This document shows, one piece after another, positions 12,087 to 29,340 of a DNA stretch of 64,000 nt. The notes beneath the pieces were generated by a model. That model did no database searches and was not told the DNA's origin. It saw only the letters and a program-made list of their open reading frames with translations. This DNA is from Sporichthya polymorpha DSM 43042 (GTDB lineage Bacteria; Actinomycetota; Actinomycetes; Sporichthyales; Sporichthyaceae): contig NZ_KB913029.1 in assembly GCF_000384115.1 (NCBI RefSeq), forward strand, positions 1,026,907 to 1,090,906, written 5' to 3'. How positions within the stretch are numbered: position 1 is the first letter of the stretch; each line of letters begins with the position of its first letter. Position numbers and translations under genes: made by a program.

Positions 12087-12132
12087 AAAAGGGTGACACC
12101 CCTTACTGCGCAGTAAGGGGTGTCACCCTTTT
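12087..12132. repeat. Perfect 46-bp palindrome, family A copy 1 (bidirectional terminator position)
   Basis: Two 23-base arms meet with no loop: AAAAGGGTGACACCCCTTAC plus TGC on the left and its exact complement on the right. It sits between the convergent MarR and histidine-phosphatase genes and covers the latter's stop codon. A nearly identical element is at 47785-47828. It could form a strong hairpin terminator in either direction; the sequence identity between copies suggests a repeated element rather than chance. Confidence 0.85.
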
Positions 12133-12746
12133 GTGACAAGGGGCGGGGGCAGGTGCTGGGTCTCGTTGAGGGAGGCGAGGCGGACGCCGCCGGAGGTGTC
12201 GGCGACGAGGCGGTTGATTCCGCAGTTGTCGGGGTGGAAGAACCACATCCGGTCGATGCCGACCGCGGCGCCGAGGAGGACGTTGAGCACCCCGCCGTGG
12301 CTGACGACGAGAGCCCGGCCGCCGGCGTGGGTCGTCAGGATCTCGGCGAGGACCTCGCCGGCCTCGGCGCGGAAGGTCGGGAGGTCGATGCCCCACGGCG
12401 TGAGGTCGCCGGCCATGCAGGCGTCGAAGCGGGGGTCACCGGCGGCGCGGAGTTCACTCAGCAGGACGTACTCCGTCGAGCGGCGGTCGAACTCGGCGAG
12501 CCCGTCGCGGACCTGCGCCCGGAGGCCGAGTTCGGCACACAGCGGAGCGGCGGTCTCCAGCGCCCGGCGCTGGGGCGAGCAGTAGACCGCCTCGACGGGT
12601 TCACCGGCGAGCGCCTTGGCGACCGCGTTCGCCTCCTCGCGGCCGCGCGCGGACAGGCCGGGGTCGGTCGTCCCGCGCTCCGCCTGACCGTGGCGGACCA
12701 GGACGACCGTCGTGTGGGCGACGACCTCGAGGCCGCCGGGCCTCAA
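12123..12746 (-). CDS. Histidine phosphatase family protein, coupled to a LivG-type ATPase
   Basis: A 207-residue member of the branch-1 histidine phosphatase superfamily. The phospho-accepting RHG is in VVLVRHGQAE near residue 18; the second catalytic His is in LVVSHGGVLN; YCSPQRRALETA is the other typical block. It probably starts at TTG 12746, overlapping the ATPase stop (TTGA); PGGLEV after this start is conserved in the paralogue at 22192-22833, supporting that start. The stop codon lies within the family A palindrome. Substrate unknown. Pairing with an ABC ATPase occurs twice in this window. Confidence 0.85.
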   Translation of the reverse strand: MRPGGLEVVAHTTVVLVRHGQAERGTTDPGLSARGREEANAVAKALAGEPVEAVYCSPQRRALETAAPLCAELGLRAQVRDGLAEFDRRSTEYVLLSELRAAGDPRFDACMAGDLTPWGIDLPTFRAEAGEVLAEILTTHAGGRALVVSHGGVLNVLLGAAVGIDRMWFFHPDNCGINRLVADTSGGVRLASLNETQHLPPPLVTKG

Positions 12747-13546
12747 CTCGCGAGCTCGTCGGTCTCGAGCTCGGGCGCCTCGGAGCCGAGGTACGCGCTG
12801 CGGACCAGCTCGGACGTCTGCACCTCGCGCGGCGTGCCCTCGAAGATCGGCTTGCCGAAGTCGAGGACGTGGATGTACTCGCAGGTGCTCATGACGAGCG
12901 CCATGTCGTGCTCGACGATGAGGATGCCGAGGCCGCGCTCGGCGACCAGCGTCCGCAGGATCTCGCCGAAGCGCTCGGTCTCGGAGCCGTCCAGACCGGA
13001 CGAGGGCTCGTCGAGCAGCAGCAGCCGGAAGTCGCCGGCGGAGACGCGGGCCAGCTCGACGAGCCGGCGCTGACCCGTGGAGAGGTCGGCCGGACGCCGG
13101 TCGGCGAGGTGGGAGATGCCGCAGAGTTCCATCGCCTCGGCGGCGTGCTGCTTGGTCGCGCGGCGCTCGGCCGGACGCGCGGCGAGGTGCCGCAGCGGGT
13201 TCCGGCCGGCCATCGCGGCCTCGCGCCCCATGCGCACGTTCTCGCGCACCGACAGCGTCTCGAACAGCTCCATCCGCTGGAACGTGCGGCCCAGGCCCTT
13301 GAGCGCGCGGGCCTGCGGCGGGGCGGAGGTGACGTCCTCACCGAAGAGCACGACCTTGCCCGCGGCCGGGCGCACGACGCCGGTGATCGCGTTGAAGGTC
13401 GTGGTCTTGCCGGCACCGTTGGGCCCGATCAGCCCGGTGATGCGGCCACGCGGGGCCGTCAGGGTCTGGCCGTCGACGGCGGTCAGACCGCCGTAGCGGA
13501 CCGTGAGGTTCTCCACATGCAGACCATCGACGGTTCCCTCGGCCAT
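12743..13546 (-). CDS. livG: Branched-chain-type ABC transporter ATPase (LivG-like)
   Basis: A 267-residue ATPase with Walker A GPNGAGKT, signature LSTGQ, Walker B LLLLDEPSSGLD and a switch His in IVEHDM. The long insert after GRTFQRMELFETLSV is typical of LivG. ATG 13546 is preferred over GTG 13558 because GGAGGT lies 4 bases upstream. No permease or binding protein is adjacent; the transporter operon at 22.8-27.1 kb has LivF but no LivG, so this gene likely supplies the missing subunit. It is divergent from a small HTH gene. Confidence 0.9.
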   Translation of the reverse strand: MAEGTVDGLHVENLTVRYGGLTAVDGQTLTAPRGRITGLIGPNGAGKTTTFNAITGVVRPAAGKVVLFGEDVTSAPPQARALKGLGRTFQRMELFETLSVRENVRMGREAAMAGRNPLRHLAARPAERRATKQHAAEAMELCGISHLADRRPADLSTGQRRLVELARVSAGDFRLLLLDEPSSGLDGSETERFGEILRTLVAERGLGILIVEHDMALVMSTCEYIHVLDFGKPIFEGTPREVQTSELVRSAYLGSEAPELETDELAS

Positions 13547-22191: not shown

Positions 22192-22833
22192 TCAGTCCAG
22201 CGCGCGGAGGTGGCTGAACTCGTTGAGGGTGATGATCCGCATCCGGTTGCGGTGGTGGTCGACCGCGACGCGGCAGATGCCGGTGTGCTTCGGGTAGAAG
22301 AACCACATCCGGTCGAGGCCGAGGACCGCGCCGAGGATGGTGTTCAGCGCCCCGCCGTGGGAGAAGGCGAGGACGCGCTGACCGGCGTGCTTGGTGGTGA
22401 TCTCGGTGATCGCCTCCATCACCTCGGCCTTGAACGCCGGGTAATCGGTGTTCCAGGCGGAGAGGTCGCCGCGCAGGCAGGCCTTGTAGCGAGGATCGCC
22501 GGCCTTCTGGAGGTCCTCGAAGAACAGGTACTCGTCGGAGTGCTTGTCGAACTCCGCGAGGCCGTCGAGCGGGACGACCTCGATGCCGCGGTCGGCGGCG
22601 AACGGCGCGGCCGTCTCCATCGCGCGCTTCAGCGGCGAGGAGTAGATCGCGTCGAAGTGCTCGGCCGCGAGGAAGTCGGCGACGGCGCGCGCCTCGGCGC
22701 GGCCCCGCTCGGAGAGACCGGGGTCGCTGCGGTCGGGACCGGTGAGTCCGCGTTCGGGCAGGCCGTGCCGGACCAGCACCAGCTCGCCCTGCGGGGCGAC
22801 CTCGAGACCTCCGGGCTTCGGTTCGTCGCTAAT
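22192..22833 (-). CDS. Histidine phosphatase family protein, coupled to LivF
   Basis: About 213 residues, paralogous to the protein at 12123-12746: both have PGGLEV, LVRHGxxERG, YSSPLKRAMETA-like and FSHGGALNTILGA-like blocks, plus the shared GLDRMWFF segment and a Glu-Phe-containing DGLAEFD. The catalytic His is in RHG and the second in SHGG. No ATG, GTG or TTG is available upstream of the conserved PGGLEV, so translation may start at ATT 22833, which overlaps the LivF stop codon; a later GTG is possible but would remove conserved residues. Last gene of the transporter operon. Confidence 0.8.
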   Translation of the reverse strand: MSDEPKPGGLEVAPQGELVLVRHGLPERGLTGPDRSDPGLSERGRAEARAVADFLAAEHFDAIYSSPLKRAMETAAPFAADRGIEVVPLDGLAEFDKHSDEYLFFEDLQKAGDPRYKACLRGDLSAWNTDYPAFKAEVMEAITEITTKHAGQRVLAFSHGGALNTILGAVLGLDRMWFFYPKHTGICRVAVDHHRNRMRIITLNEFSHLRALD

Positions 22834-23524
22834 GCCCGCCTCCGACGTACTCCGCCGCAATCGCGTCGGCATCCACCTCGGACACCTCGCCGGCGAAGGA
22901 GACGCGGCCGCGGTTGAGCAGGTAGACGTAGTCCGCGACGTCGAGCGCACGCGTGACGTACTGCTCGACGAGCAGCAGCGCGGAGCCCTCCGCGGCCAAC
23001 CGGCCGAGGAATTCGAAGATCTCGTCGACGATCTTCGGCGCGAGGCCCATCGAGACCTCGTCCAGCAGGACGAACCGCGGCTTCTGGATGTAGGTCCGGG
23101 CCAGGGCGAGCATCTGCTGCTCACCGCCGGACATCGTCCCGGCGAGCTGCGCGAGCCGCTCCCCGAGTCGCGGGAACGCGGAGACCGCGCGCTCGATCGA
23201 CTCCTTCTCCTGGCCGGCCTTGCTCTGCAGGATCAGGTTGTCCCGCACCGTCAGGCTCGGGAAGATGCCTCGCCCCTCGGGCACGTGGCACAGACCCCGC
23301 GCGCACAGGTCGTGCGGCGGCATCCCGAGGACCGACTCCCCGCCGAGCACGATGTCCCCGCCCATCGGGCGGATCAGCCCGGAGGCGGCACGCAGGAGGG
23401 TCGTCTTGCCCGCGCCGTTCGGCCCGAGCAGGGCGACGATCGAGCCGTCGGGGACGATCAGGTCGACCCCGCGCAGGACCTGGGTGCCGCCGTAGCCGGC
23501 GTCGAGCCCGCGAAGTTCGAGCAT
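22829..23524 (-). CDS. livF: Branched-chain-type ABC transporter ATPase (LivF-like)
   Basis: A 231-residue ATPase with Walker A GPNGAGKT, signature MSGGEQQMLALAR and Walker B FVLLDEVSMGLAP, the last being characteristic of LivF. It starts at ATG 23524, sharing one base with the stop of the binding-protein gene, and its stop overlaps the start of the histidine phosphatase. It would form a heterodimer with a LivG subunit, which is not in this operon. Confidence 0.93.
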   Translation of the reverse strand: MLELRGLDAGYGGTQVLRGVDLIVPDGSIVALLGPNGAGKTTLLRAASGLIRPMGGDIVLGGESVLGMPPHDLCARGLCHVPEGRGIFPSLTVRDNLILQSKAGQEKESIERAVSAFPRLGERLAQLAGTMSGGEQQMLALARTYIQKPRFVLLDEVSMGLAPKIVDEIFEFLGRLAAEGSALLLVEQYVTRALDVADYVYLLNRGRVSFAGEVSEVDADAIAAEYVGGGH

Positions 23525-25191
23525 CAGCCCCTCCGTCGGCCCGCGGTCTGACGCGCACTCACTCCACCGGCCAGGACGGCCAGTTGCGGCGAGGAGTCCG
23601 CCTTCGAGTCCGAACGCTGCGCCGGGGCCGACGACCCGTCGATCAGCGCCGCGGCCGCGTTCTCGAGTTTCTTGTCAGCGCCGTAGCAGACCGGCTTGCT
23701 GCCGTTCGGGGCGCCGAAGCCCTTGTCGTCCAGCCGCAGGCCGTAGTAGCAGTCGATCGACTTGGCCGGCGAGCCCTTCGTGAACGTGGCACCCGGGGAC
23801 AGCCCGTCGAGCTTCTCGTTCTTCAGCTGCCAGAGGCCGTCGAGAATCATCTCGGTCGTGATGTTGCCGGCGCGAGCCTTCGCCGACACCTTCTCCATCG
23901 CGGCCTCGAGCAGCTTGCCGGCGGCCCAGCCGAGCAGCGTTTGCTGGTCCTCGGGCGACGAGGGAGCCCAGCGCTTGGTCGCGGCGTGGAACTCCTTGAT
24001 GCCCGGGGTGTCGGTCGTCATGTAGGGCACGACGCCACTGCCGAGGAAGGTCTTGTTGCGGCGCAGACCCGCATCGGCCGCGGCCGCGGCGCTGACCGCG
24101 ATGGCGCCGGTGGCGATCGTCGGGAAGTAGTTCAGCGACGCGCACGACCGGGCGGCGCGGATGCTGGCCGAGCCGTCGAGGCCGAAGAACAGGATGTTGA
24201 CGCCGGCCGACTTCATCGTCTGACACTCGGAGGTGAAGTCCGGCTGGGTGAGGGAGACCGCCTGGATCGGCCCGAGGGCCGCCCCCGCGCGCTCCGCGCT
24301 CTTCGGGTAGTTGTTCTTCAGACCGGTGCAGATCGAGGCCTCGACGCAGTAGAAGATGCCGGCCTTCAGCGAACCCGACGTCACCTTCGCGGCGTCGACG
24401 ACGCCACCGTCGTAGGACGTGAGCGGCGTGCCGCCGCTCGGGAACAGGAAGGGACTCTGCACCCAGTCGATGGCCGTGACGTCGCCGCCGACCACCGGAA
24501 TCTTGTCGCGCTCGGCGGCGGTACGCAGCGCCGCGATGGCGATCGGCACACCGCCGCCGACCATGGCGACGGCGCCGCGGTCCTTCATGATCTGGTTCCA
24601 GTTCGAGGAGACGCGCGCCGGGTCGGAGGCGTCGTCGAGCTGGATCAGCTGGACGGGGTGGCACTGCAGACCACCCCGGGCGTTGATGTCCTTCGCCCAC
24701 ACCGCGAGGCCCGTGCGCAGGCCGCCGATGGCCGCGCCCACGAGACCGGAGGACGCGAGCGTCTGGCCGAGGACGACCGGCGCGAGCTGCTGCGTGCAGG
24801 CCGTCGACGCGGTGCCGGCGGTACCGCCGGTGCCGCCCTTCGCGCCGGCGTTGGCGCCCGGCTTCGTGCCGGGGCCGGCGTTCGTGCCGGGGGCGGTGGA
24901 GGCGCCGGGGTTGACGCCGGGAACCTGCGCCCCCGGGGCGGCCGTGTCGTTGCCCGGAGCGACCGTGCCCGGGTCGACGCCGGGCGCTCCGGCATTTGGG
25001 TCCACCGCACCAGGAGCCACGGCGGCACCGGAGTTGTCGCGGGCGGCGTCGACCGGCCCGTATCCGTTGCCCACCGCGGCGACCTGTTCGTGGTCGACGC
25101 GGTTGCCGCATCCGGCGACGAGCGCCAGTGCCACCGCGCCGGCGAGGAACGCGGCGCGGGTGGACTTCTGTCGAGACGTCAGGCGAGACAT
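23524..25191 (-). CDS. ABC transporter substrate-binding lipoprotein with long disordered linker
   Basis: A 555-residue type I periplasmic-binding-fold protein. A lipobox LVAGC places the lipid anchor at Cys28. Residues about 50-135 are a Gly/Pro/Ala/Thr/Asn-rich linker with PGVDPG and PGTNAGPGT-type repeats, likely a flexible tether through the cell wall. The binding domain follows (VVLGQTLASSGLVGAAIGGLRTGL, then AMVGGGVPIAIAALRTAAERDKIPVVGGD). A short Ser/Ala-rich tail ends with Arg-Arg-Arg. The architecture matches the branched-chain amino-acid/amide family; the cargo is probably an organic acid or catabolic substrate, not necessarily an amino acid. Confidence 0.9.
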   Translation of the reverse strand: MSRLTSRQKSTRAAFLAGAVALALVAGCGNRVDHEQVAAVGNGYGPVDAARDNSGAAVAPGAVDPNAGAPGVDPGTVAPGNDTAAPGAQVPGVNPGASTAPGTNAGPGTKPGANAGAKGGTGGTAGTASTACTQQLAPVVLGQTLASSGLVGAAIGGLRTGLAVWAKDINARGGLQCHPVQLIQLDDASDPARVSSNWNQIMKDRGAVAMVGGGVPIAIAALRTAAERDKIPVVGGDVTAIDWVQSPFLFPSGGTPLTSYDGGVVDAAKVTSGSLKAGIFYCVEASICTGLKNNYPKSAERAGAALGPIQAVSLTQPDFTSECQTMKSAGVNILFFGLDGSASIRAARSCASLNYFPTIATGAIAVSAAAAADAGLRRNKTFLGSGVVPYMTTDTPGIKEFHAATKRWAPSSPEDQQTLLGWAAGKLLEAAMEKVSAKARAGNITTEMILDGLWQLKNEKLDGLSPGATFTKGSPAKSIDCYYGLRLDDKGFGAPNGSKPVCYGADKKLENAAAALIDGSSAPAQRSDSKADSSPQLAVLAGGVSARQTAGRRRG

Positions 25192-27083
25192 CAGGCGGTA
25201 CCTCCGAGGGACAGGCGCATCCGGCGCCCGGCGGGGCCTTCCGCGCGAGCGGCGTTTCGCTGGGCGCCGCGGGCGAGCCAGTTGTCGACCCCGCCCTGGG
25301 ACGCCGCGGCGGCGAAGATCGCGCCGAGACCGAACCCGAGCTGCAGCCACGCGGCTGCGTTCTCCTGGGTGAAGTAGAGGGGGACGACGTACAGCAGGGC
25401 CGGGGCGACGAACGCCGCGGTGATCGTGCGGCTGCCGGCGATCGCGAGGACCGCGAGCGCGAGCAGCGACTGGACGTAGTTGAAGGTGTCCTGGGTGACG
25501 CCACCGAAGAGCGAGGCGTACAGGCCACCGGAGATGCCGGCGAGGAAACCGGAGATGCAGAACACGATGACGCGGGAGATGTTGACCGACGTGCCGAGCG
25601 TGGTGAGCGCGAGCGGGGAGTCCGACATCGCGCGCAGCAGCCGACCGAGGCGGGAGCGTTCGACGGCGAGGACCACCAGCACACCGGCGATCGCCATCGC
25701 GAGCAGCAGGTAGTAGTAGTCCTTGTCCTGCTCGAACCCGTCCGGCCGGCGGGTCAGCAGCTGACCGCCACCGAACATGTAGGACTTCGAGTAGGCGAAC
25801 TGGCTGAGCACGATCCCGAAGCCGAGGGTCGCGAGCGCCAGGTACAGACCGGACAGGCGGATCGCGGGCACCGAGACGATCAGCGCGAGCGGGATGCACC
25901 ACAGGCCGCCGATCAACAGCGCCAGGAAGAACGGCGCCCCGTTGTTCGCCGAGTGCCCGAACCCGGCGGCACCGACGGCGGCGAAGCCGAAGTGGCACAG
26001 CGAGATCTGGCCCGAGGTCCGCACCAGCAGGTGCAGCGAGACGAACAGCAGCACCTGCGTGAGCGCCACGTTGTAGCCGGGGAGCTTCGCGCCGACCACG
26101 TGCGGGATCACCAGCAGGACCGCCAGGCCCACGCACAGCGCGCCGATCCGGGCCTGCGGCGGCAGGATGCTCGCCGCCGGCGGACGCGCCCGCACCATGC
26201 GGCCGACCTCGACCAGCTTCTTGCGCGGGATGACCAGCAGACCGACGAACAGGACGAGGAACGGAACCGTCAGGCCGAGGCCCTGGAGCTGCTCGTTGCT
26301 GCCGGTCGCCTTGCCGATGACGGCCTGCAGGACGCCGACGATGATGCCGCCGACGAACGCCATCGGCAGGTTGGTGAATCGGGCGATCGTCGCGGCGCCG
26401 AAGGCCTGGACGACCAGCAGCGAGAGCACGTTGATGTCGAGCTGCGACTGGTTCTGGGCGAACAGGATGCCGGAGACCGCCGCGAAGGAGGACCCGATCA
26501 TCCACGACGCCCGGCGCACGCGCGCCGGGGCGGTGCCCGACATCGAGAGCAGCTGCGGGTCGTCGACCACGCCGCGCATCGCGACGCCCAGGCGCGACAT
26601 CCGGAAGAACAGGAACAGCGCGATCGCAGCGACGGTGCCGGCGGTGAACGTGTAGAGGTCGTCCACCGACACGGTCGCGTCGAAGAGCGTAAACGCTTCT
26701 TCCTGCGACAGGAACGGGTTGAACACCAGGCCGACGTCGCCGAAGCTCAGGTCGAGGATCGCGCGGATGGCGACCAGCAACCCGACGGTGCCGACGATGC
26801 GCATCGCCGTCGACACCGGCGCGAGTACGACGGCCAACCGTTCGAGGATCAGGCCGGCGATCGGGCCGAAGACGAACACGACGATCAGGAACGCCAGTTG
26901 CCAGGGCATGCCCTGGTTCTGCCGCAGTTCGTAGAAGCCGTAGGCCGCCGCGGCGCACACCGCACCGTGCCCGACGTTGAACACGCCAGAGGTCTTGTAG
27001 GTGAGCACGAGGCCCATCGCGGACAGGCCGTAGATCGCTCCGGTGATGATGCCGAAGACGATGAACGGGGAGTAGTCGCTCAC
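25191..27083 (-). CDS. Fused LivH-LivM permease
   Basis: A 630-residue membrane protein with about 16 or more hydrophobic segments. The N-terminal half carries LivH features (GIITGAIYGLSAMGLVLTYKTSG, FNVGHGA; RAxxDDPQLLSMSGT). The C-terminal half from about residue 320 carries LivM features (SGQISLCHFGFAAVGA, PAIRLSGLYLALATLGFG, SPLALTTLGTSVNISRV). Normally two separate proteins, here one chain. Start set at GTG 27083, overlapping the stop of the preceding gene and preceded by GGAG; longer starts are possible. Its end shares a base with the binding-protein start. Confidence 0.92.
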   Translation of the reverse strand: MSDYSPFIVFGIITGAIYGLSAMGLVLTYKTSGVFNVGHGAVCAAAAYGFYELRQNQGMPWQLAFLIVVFVFGPIAGLILERLAVVLAPVSTAMRIVGTVGLLVAIRAILDLSFGDVGLVFNPFLSQEEAFTLFDATVSVDDLYTFTAGTVAAIALFLFFRMSRLGVAMRGVVDDPQLLSMSGTAPARVRRASWMIGSSFAAVSGILFAQNQSQLDINVLSLLVVQAFGAATIARFTNLPMAFVGGIIVGVLQAVIGKATGSNEQLQGLGLTVPFLVLFVGLLVIPRKKLVEVGRMVRARPPAASILPPQARIGALCVGLAVLLVIPHVVGAKLPGYNVALTQVLLFVSLHLLVRTSGQISLCHFGFAAVGAAGFGHSANNGAPFFLALLIGGLWCIPLALIVSVPAIRLSGLYLALATLGFGIVLSQFAYSKSYMFGGGQLLTRRPDGFEQDKDYYYLLLAMAIAGVLVVLAVERSRLGRLLRAMSDSPLALTTLGTSVNISRVIVFCISGFLAGISGGLYASLFGGVTQDTFNYVQSLLALAVLAIAGSRTITAAFVAPALLYVVPLYFTQENAAAWLQLGFGLGAIFAAAASQGGVDNWLARGAQRNAARAEGPAGRRMRLSLGGTA

Positions 27084-27640
27084 GAGTCGCACACTCCGCA
27101 ACGCCCGTAGTTCTCGATCTGGTCGGCCGGCACCGGCGTCGTCTGCTTGCCCCGCAGGAGCAGGCAGCCGGGCCGGTGGACCCGCGTCATCTGACCGGAC
27201 GTCACCAGCTCGCCGGTGGCGATCGGGCCGGTCTCGTCCGCGCTGTCTGCGGCCCGGCGGTCGGTCGCCCCACCGCGCACCCGGCTCAGGCCGAGGGCGG
27301 CGCGCTGGTCGCGGCGCAGGTCACGGAAGCCGTGGCGGACGCGGCGCAGGCCGATGAGGACCCACAGGACGCCGGCGACGCCGACGAGCCCGGTGGAGAA
27401 GATCGCCCCGACGAGCCAGCCGCTCTGCTGCCGCCAGACGGCTTCCTCCGTGGCGCCGATCCAGCACGCGACGACACCGACAACTCCGAGCAGCGCGAGC
27501 AGCCCGCAGATCAGCATGTCGCGACGGCGCCAGGGCGAGGGGTCGCGGCGGTAGGACACGGAACGGGCCGGGGTGTCCGGGGGCGTCGCAGCCTTCTCCG
27601 GGACCTCGGGAATCTCCGTCTGGTCGATCGTGGCGGTCAA
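27080..27640 (-). CDS. Small membrane protein with C-terminal Cys/His cluster
   Basis: About 186 residues from TTG 27640. A charged N-terminal 50 residues is followed by two hydrophobic segments (MLICGLLALLGVVGVVACW and WLVGAIFSTGLVGVAGVLW) and a basic cytoplasmic-type stretch. The C-terminus has VHRPGC and then YGRCGVC, an H-x3-C...C-x2-C pattern that could bind zinc. It overlaps the fused permease gene and is therefore likely an accessory subunit of the transporter. Family not recognised; the start codon is uncertain. Confidence 0.7.
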   Translation of the reverse strand: MTATIDQTEIPEVPEKAATPPDTPARSVSYRRDPSPWRRRDMLICGLLALLGVVGVVACWIGATEEAVWRQQSGWLVGAIFSTGLVGVAGVLWVLIGLRRVRHGFRDLRRDQRAALGLSRVRGGATDRRAADSADETGPIATGELVTSGQMTRVHRPGCLLLRGKQTTPVPADQIENYGRCGVCDS

Positions 27641-27647
27641 GATCGTC

Positions 27648-27962
27648 TCAGCCGTTCCGCCGCCCGGGAGCCTTGCCCGAGTTGGCTGCCTCGTTCTCGA
27701 GGAACGCACGCAGGTCGTCGCCCTGGGCCGCGAGCTCACGCCACTCGTCGCGCAGGTCGGCGGACAGCCACAGCACACCGGCGACCACGAACAGGATCAC
27801 CGCGGTCAGGCCGCCGGAGATCACGTACGGGATCTGCTCGGCGATGTACTCGGTGTCGGACGTGCCGAGGTAGCCGAAGATCAGCACCACGAGGCCGAGG
27901 AAGGCCGCCACGACGGCGCCGGCGCGGTCCCACTGGACGCGGACGTACTTCAGGAGGTTCAT
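27648..27962 (-). CDS. Small two-helix membrane protein in the transporter operon
   Basis: A 104-residue protein: MNLLKYVRVQWDRAG, then two membrane segments (VVAAFLGLVVLIFGYLG and PYVISGGLTAVILFVVAGVLW), and a charged C-terminal helix (DEWRELAAQGDDLRAFLE). ATG 27962 lies 10 bases after the stop of the secreted-protein gene, with AGGAGG-like complement nearby. Not assigned to a family. Sitting between the surface protein and the second small membrane protein, it probably belongs to one envelope complex with the transporter. Confidence 0.75.
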   Translation of the reverse strand: MNLLKYVRVQWDRAGAVVAAFLGLVVLIFGYLGTSDTEYIAEQIPYVISGGLTAVILFVVAGVLWLSADLRDEWRELAAQGDDLRAFLENEAANSGKAPGRRNG

Positions 27963-27972
27963 GCCGTCACCT

Positions 27973-29340
27973 TCACCGCGAACGCACTCCCAACCAGGAG
28001 AGACCGCCGACCGACAGCAGGCCCAGCAGGCCGAGTGCCGCGACGGAGAGATAGATGCTGTCCAGACCGAGGCCGATCTTGAACCCGGCCAGCGAGATGC
28101 TCGGTGCTCCACCGGCGCCGGCGACCGGCGACAGCGGCACGGTCGGAACCGCGCCGGCGTCACCCAGGCTGGGCAGGCCGGCCTGGTCGACCGGGGCCAG
28201 CGAGTCCGGGGCGGCGACGCCGTCGACCGAGTCGGTCGGCGCCACCGGCGTCGAGCCGGTGCCGTCGGTGACGACCGGCTGCAGGTTCACGCTCGCCAGG
28301 GCGTAGGCCGTGCTCTGCGTGATCTTGGTGGCGCCGTTGTAGTAGCCGTTCGGCGGGGGCTCGGCGATCGTGTACTGGAAGATGTACGCGCCCGCGATGA
28401 CGCCGGTCGCGGTCTCCTGCGGAGCCTGGAACCGCATCGTGACGCCGAGCGCCTTGAGGCCCTCCAGCACCGGCCCCGACGGGACCGCGTACTTCTGCAC
28501 GGTGCCGTCCTGAGGCGCCGTCACCACGAAGTACCCGTCCTGGATCCCCAGCTCGGGATTGTGGAACGTCTGGCCACCACCCGGGAACGGGAACGGCGGA
28601 ACCTCGATCGGCGCCTGGTTCGGGATGCCTGGGATCGGCACCGGGATCGGGATCTGACCCGGGCTCTGCTTCGGCACCGTGAAGCTCAGACCGGGGAACG
28701 AGATCTTCCCGATCGAGCTCGACGTCGTGCGCGTCAGCTTGCCGGAGAAGCCGTCCGCCTTCACCGTCGCGACGCTCTTGACGTCCGAGAGCGTGCCGTA
28801 CGGGCCGATCTTCACCGTATCGGCGCCGGTCGTCGCCGTGGCGACGACGTCACCGGAGCGCGCCTCGTCGATTCGCGCATTCGCGCTCGCACCCGAGCCG
28901 GCCTGGCCCAGCACCGAGGACGCCTGCGTGGTGAAGTCCCCGCTCTCGGCGTGCAACTCCACGCCCGGGTACGAGACCGACTGCGGCGGCGAGCCCGCGT
29001 TGGAGGAGGCGATGAACGGGTACGGCGGCGCGGTGAAGCCGAACAGACCGGCCCCGATGCCGGGCAGGCCCGGGACCGTGTCGCCGGCGTACGGCAGCTG
29101 CGCGCTCGCGTCCGAGATGCCGACGCTGTCCTGCCGGACGCTCGCGGCCGGACCACCGCCCTCGATGTCGATGCCCGTGGGGATCGACGGGTTGGCGATG
29201 TTGAGCGTGAAGGTCTCGGTTCGAGCGGTCGCGTCGTAGCTGGACTCGGCCCCCGCCGAGCCGGCCGGCAGCACGACCAACCCACCGGTGGTGACCAGTG
29301 CGGCCACCCCGAGGGGGATCGAGTAGCGCCGAAGGTTCAT
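27973..29340 (-). CDS. Secreted surface protein with C-terminal membrane anchor
   Basis: A 455-residue exported protein. The N-terminus is a signal peptide (MNLRRYSIPLGVAALVTTGG, cleavage near AGSAGA). The mature part is Ser/Thr/Gly/Val-rich and beta-like, with a proline-rich section around residues 235-275 (IPIPVPIPGIP). A Pro/Ala/Asp linker precedes a C-terminal hydrophobic helix (YLSVAALGLLGLLSVGGLSW) and a basic VRSR end, i.e. a tail anchor without LPXTG. First gene of the transporter operon. A role in capturing or channelling substrate at the cell surface is inferred from position. Confidence 0.8.
   Translation of the reverse strand: MNLRRYSIPLGVAALVTTGGLVVLPAGSAGAESSYDATARTETFTLNIANPSIPTGIDIEGGGPAASVRQDSVGISDASAQLPYAGDTVPGLPGIGAGLFGFTAPPYPFIASSNAGSPPQSVSYPGVELHAESGDFTTQASSVLGQAGSGASANARIDEARSGDVVATATTGADTVKIGPYGTLSDVKSVATVKADGFSGKLTRTTSSSIGKISFPGLSFTVPKQSPGQIPIPVPIPGIPNQAPIEVPPFPFPGGGQTFHNPELGIQDGYFVVTAPQDGTVQKYAVPSGPVLEGLKALGVTMRFQAPQETATGVIAGAYIFQYTIAEPPPNGYYNGATKITQSTAYALASVNLQPVVTDGTGSTPVAPTDSVDGVAAPDSLAPVDQAGLPSLGDAGAVPTVPLSPVAGAGGAPSISLAGFKIGLGLDSIYLSVAALGLLGLLSVGGLSWLGVRSR

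Follow-up and report, generated by a model that had tools for sequence, protein, structure and literature searches.

Why should an operon for a Liv-type ABC importer begin with three genes for envelope proteins that belong to no recognized family, and are these proteins part of the transporter? The question is raised by positions 22192 to 29340 of the window, by which we mean the whole 64,000-nucleotide stretch of the Sporichthya polymorpha DSM 43042 genome that was analyzed. The initial annotation, made from the sequence alone, described an importer with unusual envelope parts and proposed that these provide a route across the wall for a large or hydrophobic substrate, one that perhaps supplies the P450 and mutase pathways encoded nearby. 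Bacterial steroid uptake is poorly understood (PMC4810484), and the Mce4 steroid uptake system (Mohn et al. 2008, cited in PMC4810484) is the known precedent for multi-protein importers in actinobacteria.

Results

The operon is compact and lies on the minus strand from 29340 to 22192 in the order SURF, TM2a, TM2z, LivHM, LivK-type binding protein, LivF, and histidine phosphatase, with intergenic gaps of 10 and 7 bp followed by start/stop overlaps between the later genes. The next gene upstream of SURF is about 215 bp away. As initially annotated, the operon starts with a secreted, tail-anchored protein of 455 residues (SURF, 29340-27973), followed by a two-helix membrane protein of 104 residues (TM2a, 27962-27648) and by a 186-residue two-helix membrane protein (TM2z, 27640-27080) with a zinc-like Cys/His tail of the form H-x3-C-x21-C-x2-C. 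The fused permease was also correctly recognized: LivHM (27083-25191, about 630 residues, with an alternative upstream start at 27101) is a single chain with two BPD_transp_2 halves (PF02653, 155 bits over two stretches). The 555-residue LivK-type substrate-binding lipoprotein (25191-23524) has a lipobox and the long Gly/Pro linker ascribed to it, a Gly/Pro/Ala-rich stretch of about 108 residues, in addition to its Peripla_BP_6 domain (PF13458, E 5e-33). The LivF-type ATP-binding protein (23524-22829) was assigned with Pfam and NCBIfam, and the last gene (22833-22192), which overlaps the end of livF and whose upstream boundary is uncertain, encodes a protein of the histidine phosphatase superfamily.

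The description of this stretch as an ABC importer operon holds for the permease, the binding protein, and LivF, with the qualification that no LivG gene lies inside the operon. A LivG-type ATPase is encoded 10 kb downstream on the same strand (12743-13516; best model PRK11300 LivG, E 8e-58, under the curated cut-off) and is likely the second ATPase for this permease. With this pairing, which we infer, all the parts that define a HAAT/Liv-type importer are present, that is, two permease domains, a Peripla_BP_6-type protein, and LivF and LivG ATPases. The closest solved structures to the binding protein are Liv/HAAT amino acid binding proteins, and no component of the operon reaches the NCBIfam Liv equivalog cut-offs. 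The LivG-type gene is followed by a second histidine phosphatase gene (window 12123-13516), an arrangement that mirrors the pair formed by LivF and its phosphatase at 22192-23524. Possibly the phosphatase acts in connection with LivG/LivF-type ATPases; its role in transport is doubtful.

The operon is not the singular oddity that it appeared to be from the window, as it is one of 24 loci of this kind. In the single 5.5-Mb contig of the genome, 80 PF02653 halves make up 40 LivHM loci, all of which were searched with iterated profiles. The SURF module was found at 24 of the 40, and the 24 high-scoring fused permeases are all accompanied by SURF. TM2a is present at 23 of these 24 cassette loci and TM2z with an intact H-x3-C...C-x2-C tail at 21, and one locus (L106) is without both TM2 proteins. 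A distant SURF, a single TM2-type gene, or both occur at another four or five LivHM loci of greater divergence, and the iterated profiles found no SURF or TM2 parts at the rest of the 40, many of which have separate LivH and LivM genes. An unrestricted whole-genome search with TM2a gave 27 matches, all within 8 kb of LivHM (P about 5e-25) and 25 of them within 3 kb of a LivHM gene (P 2e-29), zones that account for 12.6% and 5.7% of the genome, respectively. Given this clustering and the presence of close orthologues in two other Sporichthya genomes (SURF identity 78-96%), the makeup of the operon is not due to chance. TM2a is 76% identical to the TM2a of a Sporichthya metagenome-assembled genome (MAG).

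The module is also found far outside this genome. Five genomes of the family Sporichthyaceae have 5-23 SURF matches each, 46 of the 148 genomes searched from the class match the TM2z profile, and SURF profile matches extend to classes of the phylum other than this one. When named genomes were scanned with TM2a only, 43 loci were retrieved, from Sporichthya, Streptomyces antnestii, S. jeddahensis, Streptomyces sp. CB01635, Actinophytocola, Haloechinothrix halophila, Nocardioides marmoriginsengisoli, MAGs of Frankiales and Acidimicrobiia, and one MAG labelled Acidobacteria, and nearly all of the loci that were long enough had SURF-TM2a-TM2z-LivHM with ATPase and binding-protein genes. In a blind test, loci outside the family were fetched by SURF (15 loci, other classes) or by TM2z (20 loci, other families) alone, with the neighbors disregarded, and LivHM was present in 34 of the 35; in 20 windows picked at random from the S. 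polymorpha genome, it was absent throughout. For the SURF-seeded loci outside the class, the count was 14 of 15, and the exception was a 4.7-kb contig that still carried an ATPase gene. The small proteins, whose possible lack of conservation had been named as an argument against the initial annotation, are conserved beside LivHM, and the unusual envelope parts do belong with the transporter, which they track in numerous genera, including some outside the class. SURF, TM2a, and TM2z are an accessory module of HAAT-type ABC importers that is strongly expanded in Sporichthyaceae. At some loci of other families (L249-L254, L261, and L262), TM2z stands directly before LivHM with no detectable SURF, and SURF is therefore either not always needed or has diverged past detection.

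In a tree of 92 permeases, all of the S. polymorpha cassette permeases included fall, together with those of the named genomes, into one clade (support 0.996). Its sister clade (the pair has support 1.0) holds loci of other families that also have TM2z and often SURF; the "none/part" labels in the tree understate the presence of the cassette, as the simple gene caller misses some short genes. The S. polymorpha copies are interleaved with those of other genera, and some copies stem from recent local duplications (e.g., L132/L135/L136 and L120/L124/L129), so that the repertoire of cassettes is both old and still expanding.

SURF has a signal peptide, a beta ectodomain of about 330 residues, a disordered linker of about 55 residues, a C-terminal transmembrane helix, and a basic tail. 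The structure prediction that the initial annotation had called for returned a secreted beta ectodomain with a C-terminal anchor helix: the AlphaFold2 model, built from the window SURF and 48 homologues (mean pLDDT 84, with most ectodomain blocks above 90), is a long antiparallel beta meander followed by a disordered linker (mature residues 343-398) and a single helix. The Haloechinothrix ectodomain, modelled independently (pLDDT 88, pTM 0.85), has a similar strand order. When the two models were compared with solved structures by Foldseek and VIA-align, the best VIA Z scores were 6.4 and 5.9, and the best matches were beta-barrels with TM-scores of at most about 0.26, which is the background level of unrelated beta proteins. 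We recognize no fold for the modelled domain and therefore claim it neither as known nor as new. Outer-membrane beta-barrels (porins, BtuB, and CymA) are among these weak matches, but SURF differs from them in having a helical C-terminal anchor. A profile search of PDB sequences with SURF gave no match, and SURF, TM2a, and TM2z gave only sub-threshold matches, and thus no family, in Pfam and NCBIfam. A strand-by-strand analysis of hydrophobicity found ordinary amphipathic alternation in the SURF strands, with no clear lipid face or obvious hydrophobic groove. As the ectodomain has no confident structural match, binding of a ligand or lipid by it is a guess. A divergent SURF gene elsewhere in the genome (L125, about 286 kb) is broken by a run of masked bases.

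The alignment of TM2a shows a near-invariant QWDR before helix 1, of which D and R are invariant, and a near-invariant SADLRDEW after helix 2, of which A, D, D, and W are invariant. Assignment of TM2a to the phage holins (Phage holin 3_6/Holin-X) was rejected, as the PF07332 match, at 18 bits, falls short of the cut-off of 28.4. In TM2z, H155, C159, C181, and C184 are invariant among 29 aligned sequences from several families. This His and the three Cys are potential ligands for a metal. Profile searches of Pfam and PDB sequences with TM2z gave no match. The spacing of the tail resembles Ada-type and other H-x3-C/C-x2-C zinc motifs but differs from them in sitting on two transmembrane helices, and we regard it as a putative zinc-finger-like motif, predicted to be cytosolic. 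Basic residues flank both helix pairs, which by the positive-inside rule suggests that both ends of TM2a and TM2z are cytosolic, and the conserved motifs would then face the ATPases, with only a loop of about 12 residues outside. Several other families have one 2TM protein in which the PYLxSGG loop characteristic of TM2a and the TM2z-type Cys/His tail occur together, from which we infer that TM2a and TM2z probably arose by duplication of such a combined protein. At two sister cassette loci (L104 and L133, at 1.25 and 2.61 Mb), the second TM2 protein is without the Cys/His tail.

At the cassette loci, most binding proteins are lipoproteins in which 91-126 residues (median, 102) rich in Gly, Pro, Ala, Ser, and Thr separate the lipid anchor from the domain. 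Three apparent "linkers" of 4 residues, which result from wrong lipobox calls at the edge of the domain, were left out of this tally. Among other Liv binding proteins, the few with a measurable linker gave mixed lengths of 27 to 109 residues, so that the long tether is conserved yet not unique to the module. ATPase genes are unevenly distributed among the cassette loci, with two in about 16, one in about 6, and none in 2, which suggests that LivG and LivF are partly shared between loci.

The genes neighboring the 24 cassette loci (n = 131) include acyl-CoA dehydrogenases (9), short-chain dehydrogenases/reductases (SDR; 9), P450s (8), and CoA ligases (6). Among 131 genes taken from 20 random windows, none of these enzyme types occurs more than once (pooled P 4e-7). 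As this control was drawn from random genome windows and not from Liv loci without the module, the metabolic link could be a property of Liv transporters at large. Thiolase, CoA ligase, aldehyde dehydrogenase, and GMC oxidoreductase genes are among the neighbors in Haloechinothrix, in a Frankiales MAG, and in an Acidimicrobiia MAG. Enzymes of these types occur in the catabolism of hydrophobic acids, terpenoids, or steroids, and based on the enrichment of acyl-CoA dehydrogenase, P450, CoA ligase, and SDR genes, our best guess for the substrates is hydrophobic carboxylic, terpenoid, or steroid-like compounds. The proposed route for a hydrophobic substrate fits this enrichment as well as the tethered, linker-bearing SURF and binding protein. 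The genome also has a separate six-MCE (Mce-type) cluster at 3.55 Mb, and lipid uptake may thus go another way. AveC-like genes (PF17198), of which the neighbor tally turned up two, lie near cassette loci (L104:1381-2424 and one further locus).

Discussion

What is new here is that three unnamed families are fixed partners of LivHM, while the core transporter is of a known kind. A specialist may be surprised both by a fixed partnership throughout the Actinomycetota and by its 24-fold presence in one genome. The three families, which have neither name nor model, are tied to a common type of transporter in numerous soil actinobacteria, among them Streptomyces and Nocardioides that can be cultured. 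A search of the open-access literature found no paper on the SURF/TM2a/TM2z module.

The operon shares BPD_transp_2 halves, a Peripla_BP_6 protein, and a LivF-type ATPase with the LivFGHM-JK and other HAAT importers. In contrast to the classical Liv system, LivH and LivM are fused, LivG is outside the operon, the lipoprotein tether is long, three envelope proteins are added, and there are 24 paralogous sets in one genome. The module suggests that machinery of another kind is concealed by the automatic label "branched-chain amino acid transporter". The likeness to Mce4 is of another sort, both being actinobacterial ABC importers that have several extracytoplasmic proteins of their own and are encoded near catabolic genes of the CoA/P450 kind. 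However, the Pfam search found no MCE (MlaD) domain in the operon proteins and the permease is of the BPD_transp_2 and not the YrbE type, and membership in the Mce lipid/steroid importers was therefore rejected. Uptake of steroids, terpenoids, and similar compounds by actinobacteria is poorly known, and the module provides defined genes with which to approach it.

We consider it probable that the product of the operon is a HAAT-type importer of several parts, equipped with an envelope module of its own, and that it works as follows. SURF, outside the membrane on its flexible stalk, would gather or hold a poorly soluble substrate at the wall, possibly an organic acid, a terpenoid, or a steroid-like compound, and the binding lipoprotein on its own tether of about 100 residues would carry this substrate to LivHM. 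TM2a and TM2z would dock the anchor helix of SURF to LivHM within the membrane, and their conserved cytosolic ends (SADLRDEW and the zinc-finger-like tail) may contact the permease, the ATPases, or a regulator. The paralogues would constitute a set of importers for different substrates that partly share LivG and LivF. A bolder form of this mechanism can be offered only tentatively: a wall-spanning relay from the stalked SURF to the long-tethered lipoprotein, with TM2a and TM2z as obligate LivHM adaptors, would be a hydrophobic importer in its own right beside Mce and simple binding-protein systems, of which Sporichthyaceae would have a repertoire of two dozen.

A different division of labor, in which LivHM, the binding protein, and the ATPases suffice for transport, seems unlikely to us. 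The TM2 proteins would then regulate permease assembly or activity, with TM2z sensing metal or redox state, and SURF would be a signaling receptor on the wall side. The invariant H-x3-C...C-x2-C motif on the predicted cytosolic side of TM2z, the otherwise complete permease core, and the retention of TM2z in some lineages without a detectable SURF are all in line with such regulation. However, nearly all Sporichthya copies in the permease clade keep the three proteins, which is lavish for a mere regulator, and neither SURF nor TM2a has a transduction domain in Pfam or NCBIfam.

We find it distinctly unlikely that ordinary amino acids, short peptides, or polar nutrients are imported, with the envelope proteins being a lineage-specific adaptation to the wall and the P450/CoA neighbors reflecting genome content. 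The permease and binding protein are recognizably of the Liv/HAAT type, as are the nearest solved structures, but HAAT binding proteins also take aromatic acids and other compounds, the CoA/P450 enrichment is absent from random windows of the same genome, and 24 divergent copies with distinct metabolic neighbors point to diverse substrates. That SURF is an adhesin or a structural protein of the wall, placed in transporter operons by chance or co-regulation, would agree with a secreted, anchored, beta-rich protein with no known ligand, but such a protein would hardly be expected to track LivHM over distant families as SURF does in the SURF-seeded loci outside the class, and we regard this explanation as highly improbable.

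The layout of the paralogous loci in S. polymorpha varies. At L121 (3.15 Mb) the order is shuffled to SURF, ATPase, LivHM, binding protein, TM2a, and TM2z, and at L110 (5.362-5.371 Mb) one LivHM is followed by five tandem binding-protein genes, as if one permease served several receptors.
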